This document shows positions 15,762 to 20,955 of a stretch of 64,000 nt of DNA, in pieces. The notes below the pieces were generated by a model that made no database searches, had not been told where the DNA came from, and saw only the letters and a list, made by a program, of their open reading frames with translations. Positions within the stretch are counted from its first letter, which is position 1. Every line of letters starts with the position of its first letter. Source of the DNA: Pseudomonadota bacterium (GTDB lineage Bacteria; Pseudomonadota; Gammaproteobacteria; Steroidobacterales; Steroidobacteraceae); NCBI GenBank assembly GCA_021851405.1, contig JAJZDW010000017.1, positions 1 through 64,000 of the forward strand. The letters are read 5' to 3'. The translations under genes were made by a program, and so were the position numbers.

Positions 15762-17168
15762 TCAGGTCTTGGGCAACGTCACGCCCTTCTGCCCCTGGTA
15801 CTTGCCACCCCGGTCCTTGTAGGACGTCGCGCACACCTCGTCCGACTCGAAAAACAACATCTGGGCGACGCCTTCGTTAGCGTAGATCTTGGCAGGCAGC
15901 GGCGTGGTATTGGAAAACTCCAGCGTGACGTGCCCTTCCCACTCCGGCTCCAAGGGCGTTACGTTCACGATGATGCCGCAATTATGGACGAAGACTCCGG
16001 CGTCCAGGGCAAAGTTGCCCGCTTCGGGGACCGTCAGACAGTAAACATCGTGATCGCCGGACATCTCGCGGATCGCAGCGACTTTGTGATTGCGATACAC
16101 GGGGGAAGCATGAAGGCGCTCAAGCACATCCGGGAATCGACCGAAGACCGAACGATCGTATTGCCGCGATGCCGCCGCACCCCGGTTGAAACCTGTCTCA
16201 TCGTGTGCAGCGCGTACGCGATCGGCCGGGATCTCACCTCGCCGGTTGCTCCGCCTCGCCCCATCCGCCTGCGGGCGTCGACGGGAGTCATCCTCGGCAG
16301 TCCAACCGGTGTGCCGCCGCATGGGATCCGCTGCGGCCATCCCGATCGGGTTTGTCGGCCGATGGTTCCGGGGATTGAAATCCACGGGGGAGTGATCGGT
16401 ATCCACGGCTTGCGCGCAGATGCCGTGTCGGAGGAGCCACTCATCGGCCAGACGATGCGTGGCAGACATCTGCCCGTCGATCGGTTGATACACGCACTCC
16501 TCGCCGCGCACGACATCACGGTACAGCGGCATGAGCGCATCGCCCGGACGCAGTGTCTGCGCCGCAGCCATCCGGCCATCGCGCCGCATAAACTGATGAT
16601 CCGCCGTCGCATGGATGAACCGCCCGTCATCCAGCTCGATCTCGATGAGCGAGTCGCGCCCGATGAATCGGGGTGCATCGAGCAAAGACACGATCAGCCG
16701 GCCGTTCGGTCCGATGCTGTACCCCCAGAAGGACTCGCCGCAATCATGCCGCCGCGCCATCTCCTCGAGCGTCGCAGCGGTGCCGTCGACAAGGGCCACG
16801 CGGGTATCACCCCGGAAGCAGCGCGCGTAGGTCGATTTCCCAAGACACACCGTGAGCACGCTGCGCGGAATGCGGAAGTACTCGACCGTGCGCGCCAGCG
16901 CAAAGGAATTCGGCGGGATCACGCACACATCGGCCTTCAGGTCGACGAAACTCTTCTCGTCGAAGGCTTTCGGATCGACGATGGTCGAGTTGATGTTGGT
17001 GAAAATCTTGAACTCATCCGCACAGCGAACGTCGTAGCCGTAGCTCGACGTGCCGTAGGAGACGATCTTGTGGCCATCGACGTAGCGCACCTGCTCGGCC
17101 GCAAACGGCTCGATCATGCTCTGCTCGCGCGCCATGCGCCGGATCCAATGGTCGGACTTGATGCTCAT
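15762..17168 (-). CDS. dcd: dCTP deaminase precursor interrupted by an intein
   Basis: A 468-residue open frame encoding dCTP deaminase (dCTP to dUTP, feeding dTMP synthesis) split by a 280-residue intein. The N-extein is residues 1-116 and ends GKSTYAR; the C-extein is 397-468 and begins [16 protein letters not shown]. Joined, they give 188 residues, the usual length of this Dcd subtype. The insertion falls directly after the Arg of the (S)xxAR active-site motif (E. coli Ser111/Arg115). The catalytic Glu of TLEFSN lies in the C-extein at residue 417, so the N-terminal piece alone cannot be active. The gene is 73 bases after apbC on the same strand. The reading frame is intact throughout. Confidence 0.95.
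15981..16820 (-). mobile_element. Intein inserted in dcd, with an HNH-like insertion
   Basis: This 280-codon segment has the four splicing blocks of a class 1 intein. Block A begins at C1 with [13 protein letters not shown]. Block B carries T72xxH75 in ATADHQF, followed by LRPGDAL. Block F is [12 protein letters not shown] and block G is VFVHN, ending H279-N280 before the +1 Cys of the C-extein. All residues required for splicing are present. Between the splicing halves (about 105-255) a region with [16 protein letters not shown] and a later MRRH resembles an HNH homing endonuclease. It lacks the usual His-His pair, so it may be degenerate. Boundaries are exact because both exteins are highly conserved. 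Confidence 0.92.
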
Positions 17169-18573: not shown

Positions 18574-20955
18574 ATGACCTTTTTGACCAATTTGCGCGCC
18601 GACCGGTTGATCACAGCGATCCGGTCGGCGACGGACCCGAGCAGCCAGGAGACCCAGAAGGCCGTCGCACGGCTGAAGGATCTGGGCGCGGGCGCCATTT
18701 CCCCGGTGCTCGCCTCGCTGCCGGAGGCGGACAAGAACGCCACGGTTGCCTTCGTCGAGGTGCTCTCGGCGCTGGTCGGCCCCAAGACCTTCCCGCTGTT
18801 CATCGAGGGCCTGGTCCAGGGCAGCCCACGGGTCATCGCCGGCATCGCCTGGGCGCTCACCAGCAGCCGCAACTACCCGGCCCACCTGCTGCTCGATGCA
18901 CTCTCCACCCCCGGGATCGCCCGGCCGGCGCTGCTTGAGGTGATCGCGGCGCACAAGGCGCGCTTCACGATGCGCGAGCTGCTCGCCGCGGCGTACAACC
19001 AGGAGCCGAACGAGAAAGCGGCGCTGTTTCGCATCGTAGGCGAGCTGGTCACCCCGGCGACGCTGCCGGAGCTGCTGCAACGCCTGCAGGGCAAGGACCC
19101 GATCGCCCGGGTGCACATCATCAACGTGCTCTCGCGCTTCAACCTCCCGGAGGTGATGACCGCGCTGCAGGGACTGTTGAAGGACCCGAACAAGCTCATT
19201 CGCGGAGCCGCGCTCTCGGCGCTGCAGCGCATGGAGGGGCAGATCGATGTCGAGCGGGTCTGCGAGCTGCTGAAGGACCCGGAGATCGACGTACAGAACC
19301 GCGCCATCGACGTGGTCATCAAGGCCAACCACCCCGAGACCATCCGCTACCTGATCGGGGTGCTGAAGGACGAGAACGAGAACGCCCGGCGCGCGGCGGT
19401 CGAGGTCCTCAACGAGGTCGGCGACGCGAAGTCCGTCAAGCACCTGCTCGAGGCGCTGAAGGACAGCGACTGGTGGGTGCGCTCGCGCGCAGCCGATGCG
19501 CTCGGACGGATCGGTGGGCCGCGCGTCATCGACGCGGTACTGCAGCTGGTGCGCGACCAGGATGAGGACATCCGCCGCGCGGCCATCGAGATCCTCAACC
19601 AGACCAAGGACCCGCGCGCCGTCGACTCGCTCGTGCAGGCGACCCGCGACTCGGACTGGTGGGTGAGCGAGCGTGCGGTCGACGCGCTGGCTGAAATCGG
19701 CAGCAAACGGGCCGTACCGCGGCTCGTCGAGATGCTGCGTGGCGGCAACGCCAAGGTGCTCCCGGTCGTGGTGCGCGCCCTCGGCAAGCTCGGCGACGGG
19801 CAGGTCGTCGGCGTGCTCACGCCGCTGCTGGAGCGCCCCGAGCGCGAAGTGCGCATCGAGGTCATGCAGGCGCTCGCCACGATCGCCGACCCGGCGAGCG
19901 CCGAGACGCTGCGCACGCAGTTGAAGGTGCAGAGCAGCGCCCCGGATCAGACCATCGCGCGCGCCGCGGAGTCCGCGCTGGCGGACCTGGAGCGGCGCCT
20001 CTCGGGCGCCACTCTGACGGGCGGGGCGCTCGGGGCGACCCAACCGCAGCCACCGCACGAAGCGGCGCCGGAGGCCCCGGCCCCGAGCGTCGCGGCACGC
20101 GCTGCGGCTATCGATCGTCTCGACATCCAGACGCTGCGTTCCGGGGACGTCATCGAGGGGCGCTACAAGTACCTCGAGCGCATCGGCCGCGGCGCCTTCG
20201 GCACCGTGCTGCTGATGGAAGACACGGTGGTCGATGAGCGGCTGATCCTGAAGTTCCTCAACCCGAACGTGGCGACGGACGAGGAAGTCATGAAGCGCTT
20301 CGTCCACGAGCTGCGCTACTCGCGCAAGATCACGCATCACAACGTGATCCGCATCTACGACTTCCTCTACATCCAGGGCAACTACGCCATCTCGATGGAG
20401 TACTTCCCCTCGCACACGCTCTCGAGCGAGGTGAACGGGGAGAAGCCGCTTGAGCTGAAGCGCGCGCTGCAATTCGGCATCGACATCTGCACCGGCATGA
20501 CGGTGGCGCACCAGGCCGGCATCGTGCACCGCGACCTGAAGCCCGCCAACGTACTGATCAACCACGAGGCGCTGCTGAAGATCGTCGACTTCGGTGTCGC
20601 CGCGGCGCAGCGCGAGAGCGAGACGCAGCTGACGCGTACCGGCTACGTGATCGGCTCGCCGAAGTACATGGCCCCGGAGCAGATCCTTGGCAAGCGCGTC
20701 GATGAGCGCGCCGACATCTATGCCCTCGGGGTGATTCTCTACGAGATGGTGACCGGCTCCCCGCCGTACTCGCGCGGGGACCACATGTCGGTGATGTACC
20801 AGCACGTGCAGGGCAAGGCGCGCGCGCCGATCGAACTGAACCCGGCGCTGCCGCCGCCGCTCTCCGAACTCATCGTGCGCGCCATGGCGGTCGACAAGAC
20901 CAAGCGCTTCCAGACCATGGAAGAAGTGCGCGCGGCGCTGGAGAAATTTCTCTGA
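18574..20955 (+). CDS. HEAT-repeat protein with C-terminal Ser/Thr protein kinase domain
   Basis: A 793-residue two-part protein. Residues about 1-490 are a run of HEAT/PBS-type repeats; two near-identical copies carry the DSDWWV motif. An Ala/Pro linker (about 490-515) leads to a Hanks-type kinase (about 525-793). The glycine loop is IGRGAFGTV (537-545), the ATP lysine K560, the catalytic loop HRDLKPANV (D654), DFG at 672-674 and APE at 700-702, so the kinase looks active. No membrane segment or signal peptide is visible, so it should be cytoplasmic. It is followed by two PilT-family ATPases on the same strand, suggesting a role in controlling type IV pilus retraction; that link is inferred from context only. 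Confidence 0.88.
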   Translation: MTFLTNLRADRLITAIRSATDPSSQETQKAVARLKDLGAGAISPVLASLPEADKNATVAFVEVLSALVGPKTFPLFIEGLVQGSPRVIAGIAWALTSSRNYPAHLLLDALSTPGIARPALLEVIAAHKARFTMRELLAAAYNQEPNEKAALFRIVGELVTPATLPELLQRLQGKDPIARVHIINVLSRFNLPEVMTALQGLLKDPNKLIRGAALSALQRMEGQIDVERVCELLKDPEIDVQNRAIDVVIKANHPETIRYLIGVLKDENENARRAAVEVLNEVGDAKSVKHLLEALKDSDWWVRSRAADALGRIGGPRVIDAVLQLVRDQDEDIRRAAIEILNQTKDPRAVDSLVQATRDSDWWVSERAVDALAEIGSKRAVPRLVEMLRGGNAKVLPVVVRALGKLGDGQVVGVLTPLLERPEREVRIEVMQALATIADPASAETLRTQLKVQSSAPDQTIARAAESALADLERRLSGATLTGGALGATQPQPPHEAAPEAPAPSVAARAAAIDRLDIQTLRSGDVIEGRYKYLERIGRGAFGTVLLMEDTVVDERLILKFLNPNVATDEEVMKRFVHELRYSRKITHHNVIRIYDFLYIQGNYAISMEYFPSHTLSSEVNGEKPLELKRALQFGIDICTGMTVAHQAGIVHRDLKPANVLINHEALLKIVDFGVAAAQRESETQLTRTGYVIGSPKYMAPEQILGKRVDERADIYALGVILYEMVTGSPPYSRGDHMSVMYQHVQGKARAPIELNPALPPPLSELIVRAMAVDKTKRFQTMEEVRAALEKFL

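Follow-up and report, generated by a model that had tools for sequence, protein, structure and literature searches.

The window analysed in this work (positions 1 to 64,000 of contig JAJZDW010000017.1 from a Steroidobacteraceae genome, GenBank assembly GCA_021851405.1; 64,000 nucleotides) contains a dcd gene whose product, dCTP deaminase (Dcd), is interrupted at its active-site motif. What is the inserted element, is it still mobile, and how does the cell obtain an active enzyme? The insert is almost certainly an intein of the class 1 type that lies in frame at an already established insertion site of Dcd, here called site b. It would have arrived as a mobile element with an HNH homing endonuclease that is now decaying about neutrally, while the splicing parts of the intein are held under purifying selection.

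The Dcd and the intein are encoded by a single open frame of 468 amino acids on the minus strand (window positions 15762-17168). The N-extein (residues 1-116; 16821..17168, minus strand) matches TIGR02274 and PF22769 and ends in the active-site motif STYAR, an instance of SxxAR, whose codons occupy positions 16821..16835 on the minus strand. The intein (residues 117-396; 15981-16820, minus strand) consists of 280 residues with a mass of 31.3 kDa. The C-extein (residues 397-468; 15762..15980, minus strand) consists of 72 residues and the stop codon, starts with the +1 Cys, and contains E417, a Glu that is invariant in the alignment. The two exteins add up to 116 + 72 = 188 residues. The insertion bond lies directly after the Arg of the motif (STYAR|CG). 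An earlier sequence-only reading had placed a complete intein at this bond; its coordinates are exact to the base, the motifs, the Pfam and NCBIfam domains, and the HINT fold agree with it, and the 188 residues of the joined exteins and the free intein of about 31 kDa that it gave are reproduced by computation.

The exteins score 100.8 bits with the Pfam domain DCD and 140.9 bits with TIGR02274 (cut-off 92.8). The insert scores 53.5 bits with the Pfam domain Intein_splicing (cut-off 35.8). The NCBIfam models dCTP_deam, intein_Nterm, and intein_Cterm each match the whole protein above cut-off. The empty relative of genome G054 matches the solved Dcd 4dhk (E 8.6e-113).

All of the splicing motifs are present, namely Cys1, T72-x-x-H75 (T72-A-D74-H75), His279-Asn280, and the +1 Cys, with the junction VHN|C. 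Cys1, T72, D74, H75, and Asn280 are constant across a 17-row alignment, and the first four are likewise constant in a 22-row alignment of site-b inteins. The penultimate residue varies among the 22 site-b inteins of the bacterial family (H in 15, R in 3, K in 2, S in 1, and G in 1). The N-terminal splicing part (intein residues 1-105; 16506..16820, minus strand) carries Cys1 and TxxH, and the C-terminal splicing part (residues 237-280; 15981..16112, minus strand) carries block F with its invariant Cys and the His-Asn end. These parts were assigned from the alignment, and their borders inside the intein are our choice, which was also used for the selection analysis below. The predicted fold of the intein is a HINT fold that resembles the Ssp DnaB and DnaE inteins (1mi8 and 1zde), although these reside in other host genes and share only about 21% identity with the window intein over the aligned residues. 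With its position-1 nucleophile, block B, C-terminal Asn and +1 Cys, HINT fold, and empty alleles, the insert is an intein of the class 1 type, and its intein signal far exceeds chance.

The empty alleles also decide whether the 280 residues could be an assembly artefact or an accessory domain that is fixed in Dcd, which is practically excluded. Four of the 13 fetched genomes of the genus (the window's included) have an uninterrupted Dcd of 188 residues, so the insert is not the fixed Dcd domain in close relatives that would have spoken against the sequence-only reading. The sister species G111 and 80 named loci carry a homologous intein at this very bond, which also stands against a domain or an artefact, as does the complete set of splicing motifs, and we found no point in their support.

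The middle of the intein (residues 106-236; 16113..16505, minus strand) is a remnant of an HNH homing endonuclease. The full-size relatives (about 376 residues) typically read THRHHxDFxRRNNRPTN..HIRLHN in the alignment. The window copy has TDHS in place of THRHH, and the ruined HNH core that has lost its His-His pair covers residues 141-170 (16311..16400, minus strand). The strict HNH pattern fails in the window genome, where the core histidines are lost, and the intein is about 96 residues shorter than its full-size relatives. The ratio of nonsynonymous to synonymous substitution rates (dN/dS) between the window and G111 is 1.03 (0.60-1.95) for the endonuclease region over 114 aligned codons, and 1.01 for the part of that region before the first indel alone. 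The corresponding values are 0.17 (0.07-0.36) for the splicing parts and 0.06 (0.01-0.14) for the exteins. An HNH-like middle without the usual His-His pair, as in a decaying homing endonuclease, had been noted from the sequence alone, and the lost histidines, the missing residues, and the dN/dS bear this out. We infer that the endonuclease of the window copy is dead.

Several points weigh against this account of decay. The dN/dS contrast comes from one close pair. It is weaker with four more distant relatives, where the ratio of nonsynonymous to synonymous differences (pN/pS) is 0.42-0.72 for the endonuclease region and 0.12-0.29 for the two splicing parts, and where the alignment of the endonuclease region is gappy. 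Pfam names no endonuclease in the window copy, whose region is too divergent, and HNH_3 is below the Pfam cut-off in five of the eight scanned relatives and absent in the other three; the HNH label thus rests on the alignment. A second account holds that the intein is still mobile, with the altered HNH region serving as a working endonuclease that homes today. Most full-size relatives do retain the HNH core (the strict pattern occurs in 100 of the 105 full-size proteins with the site-b intein alone among the matches listed), and the intein family seems to have spread horizontally. However, the window copy lacks the core histidines, is short by about 96 residues, and has a dN/dS near 1 in this region, and present-day homing is very improbable.

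The domains, the insertion bond, the predicted fold, the empty alleles, the decay, the selection contrast, and the recurrence of the site in many phyla and in phage CL131 (described below) were all observed by computation. Under the preferred reading of an intein with a decaying endonuclease, the element would have entered dcd as a mobile intein that carried an HNH homing endonuclease. In the window lineage, the core histidines and about 96 residues of the endonuclease have been lost, and what is left of it now drifts about neutrally. The HINT domain would fold in the precursor and cut itself out by means of Cys1, Asn280, and the +1 Cys, whereupon the joined halves would form a normal dCTP deaminase of 188 residues. 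The window precursor is accordingly predicted from its sequence to splice itself. The Ser and the Arg of SxxAR lie on the N-extein side and the Glu of VTLEFSN lies on the C-extein side; these three residues have catalytic roles in the E. coli enzyme. An active Dcd should require splicing because these two parts of the active site flank the intein, and because a second Dcd was not found in the assembly, which is 97.4% complete. The assembly contains a weak third DCD match that resembles a dUTPase by eye.

The need of the cell for Dcd would keep the splicing parts under purifying selection, and this need is sufficient to explain why they are conserved while the endonuclease decays. The same conservation could also suit a switch, by which Dcd would stay inactive until a signal, such as a redox state acting on the intein cysteines, permits splicing. 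The insert does split the active site, the splicing parts are conserved despite the decay of the endonuclease, the block-F Cys is constant in all 22 site-b inteins of the family, and conditional splicing is reported for other inteins (PMC6195587, PMC5790916). However, the conservation is accounted for by the demand for Dcd alone, and many relatives manage without any intein (96 of the 127 fetched loci of the family). A retained switch is unlikely. The window intein, read as an intein with a decaying endonuclease, is a clean natural example of an endonuclease that decays about neutrally next to a splicing part that selection on the host enzyme maintains.

The sequence-only reading had left it as a question whether this Dcd site was already reported. 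It was, in 2018: according to PMC6293099, the Dcd of cyanophage vB_AphaS-CL131 (ORF069, MG209611) contains an intein whose excision was shown in E. coli, and the purified product was about 25 kDa, where a spliced enzyme of 23.8 kDa was predicted. The precursors of CL131 and the window are 39% identical where aligned, and the alignment gives the same bond (STYAR|C). Both inteins also belong to the same family over the splicing parts and the HNH region. The CL131 intein consists of 351 residues with an intact-looking HNH_3 and resides in a phage, whereas the window intein consists of 280 residues with a ruined HNH core and resides in a bacterial chromosome. The same paper, through its references 65 and 67, mentions Dcd inteins previously known from two bacteria under Proteobacteria and Chloroflexi. 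These share the host protein and the bacterial setting with the window intein. Since the CL131 intein is at the same bond, the insertion site of the window is not new. The window holds a new instance of a published Dcd insertion site, and it is the relatives that extend the picture in an interesting way.

The site-b intein is widely distributed. Among proteins, the whole precursor gave 5005 matches, with the best 120 listed; scoring in this search was confined to the 7999 candidates with the most words in common. The intein alone gave 1485 matches, with the best 120 listed. A search of genome contigs with the alignment of the site-b inteins of the family gave 139 confirmed loci, and the best 80 of these are all Dcd at site b; two of them have one side missing at a contig end. 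This genome search, which had been proposed from the sequence alone, thus gave intein-containing Dcd at one and the same bond. The record titles include the isolates Thiofilum flexile, Ectothiorhodospira magna, Spirulina, Fischerella muscicola, and Herpetosiphon, together with metagenome bins labelled Planctomycetes, Gemmatimonadetes, NC10, Elusimicrobia, and others, although bin names can be wrong. The full-size members (mostly 374-386 residues) from Thiofilum, Ectothiorhodospira, Spirulina, and Herpetosiphon share the bond, and their splicing cores are 66-72% identical to that of the window, but they are longer by about 96 residues and have the HNH region in full. Seven loci of the b family were identified in viral contigs, and one of them, L217 from IMG/VR with an intein of 317 residues, is Dcd at site b.

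The identity to the window drops from 98% to 46% for the exteins, while that of the splicing core ranges only from 88% to 65%; this comparison used 51 of the 80 named loci, hand-picked to thin repeats, and five genomes of the family. A co-evolving element would not keep its splicing-core identity so level, and horizontal movement is thus the natural reading. The comparison suggests that the site-b intein spread horizontally. The identities alone are also compatible with an old split of inteins that were sorted among lineages. Within the bacterial family, neither purely vertical nor purely horizontal descent of the intein holds: the distances among inteins correlate with those among exteins (Mantel r 0.46, p 0.001), and nine of 19 splits are shared, yet at least 11 changes are required for b. 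The latter count, together with at least nine changes for a second intein site (a), comes from a quick extein tree of 124 rows, from which three truncated loci of the 127 were dropped. The well-supported branches alone give eight changes for the b-only label and three for the a-only label. The intein labels are more clustered on this tree than shuffled labels.

Site a is occupied in some members of the family by another intein, between GK and STYAR (GK|S), just before the Ser of the motif and thus on the other side of STYAR from the window's site b. The site-a inteins consist of 371-411 residues and exhibit a LAGLIDADG_3 domain at 55.8, 70.3, 45.2, and 49.7 bits in the four that were scanned out of 12 (cut-off 22.5). 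The locus census covered a sample of 150 genomes of the family, of which 139 had a match and 127 dcd loci were fetched. Among these loci, 96 have an intein at neither site (a contig end truncates three of these), 19 carry b alone, nine carry a alone, and three carry both. Two STFAR loci were counted as empty and two loci as b alone after reading by eye. The b profile has no match in the 12 unfetched genomes (including G120 and G129) and the 11 family genomes without a match, and it matches three known carriers. The a profile matches seven of the same 23 genomes (best G007 at 1.2e-45, G026 at 1.1e-33, and G043 at 6.6e-25), far below the known carriers G014 (2.0e-225) and G097 (8.2e-230), and the site-a count is a lower bound. 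In viral contigs, the best 80 of the 109 loci of the a family are at 23-34% identity. Further relatives of the site-a intein were also observed in G097 (C3:144225-145487; E 3.6e-41, in a frame of 885 residues) and in G007 (C331:2078-3340; E 1.2e-45, in a frame of 848 residues).

The three double-intein dcd loci (L036, L037, and L038) each exhibit, in one frame, a LAGLIDADG-type intein, STYAR, and a site-b intein of 196, 191, and 263 residues, respectively. The residues between the two inteins are STYAR only in all three genome loci (by eye) and in all 98 proteins or fragments classed as double. The pattern for doubles required [ST][ST][YF]AR as the linking residues, which partly built in the spacing of five residues but not the reading STYAR in 98 of 98. 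Among the 120 proteins listed for the double query, 95 are double and the other 25 have a alone; 13 of the 231 proteins of the first two lists lie outside the patterns. A search of 396 genomes of the order for the exact junction pattern, which can miss variants, gave only the three known doubles. In the model of a double of 795 residues, the fold of both splicing domains has fair confidence, with block means mostly of 72-95, whereas the exteins are poorly modelled.

Loss of the HNH core is common among the relatives with site b in the family sample. Four of the 19 genomes with b alone have a full-size intein and five keep the strict HNH pattern, which one of the three doubles also keeps. The idea that the presence of a caused the decay of b was not adopted: the strict pattern occurs in 26 of 98 doubles and in 158 of 215 single-b proteins listed, but the queries that ranked these lists differed, the one for doubles having a short b, and the figures were not counted as evidence. 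Mutual exclusion of the two inteins was not supported (a in 12 and b in 22 of the 127 loci; both in 3 where 2.1 are expected; Fisher p 0.44).

We lean slightly towards the reading that STYAR is bracketed by two independent mobile inteins (LAGLIDADG at GK|S and HNH at R|C), both of which must use the five-residue middle extein, and that the window, with b only and its endonuclease dead, represents one state in a cycle that runs through empty, a, b, and a + b alleles. The a-endonuclease could home into alleles occupied by b because STYAR (15 bp) and TG follow site a with or without b. The nearest published parallel that we found is the haloarchaeal pair MCM-a and MCM-d, for which PMC10643990 reports that the neighbouring endonucleases hinder each other's homing. 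That pair, like the doubles of the relatives, is lodged within a single catalytic region of one protein; however, the host protein differs and both inteins are LAGLIDADG, whereas the Dcd pair combines LAGLIDADG (a) and HNH (b) at a spacing of five residues. A report of the Dcd a/b pair was not found in a literature search with poor coverage of subscription papers, and the Dcd doubles may be the most closely spaced natural inteins yet recorded.

The window intein itself extends a published insertion site, and the wider Dcd locus matters more. Empty, a-only, b-only, and double alleles occur in one bacterial family, with insertion points 15 bp apart. Dcd is thus a compact system for competition or co-existence of neighbouring inteins and for the minimum length of the middle extein that splicing tolerates.

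Two other features were observed in the same genome. A second intein resides in a UvrD/PcrA-like helicase on contig C64 (68709-68990; L005 7-3249), where it follows GDDDQ (GDDDQ|C..HN|S). The window also encodes, at positions 18574-20955 on the plus strand, a protein of 793 residues in which HEAT repeats are joined to a protein kinase domain.
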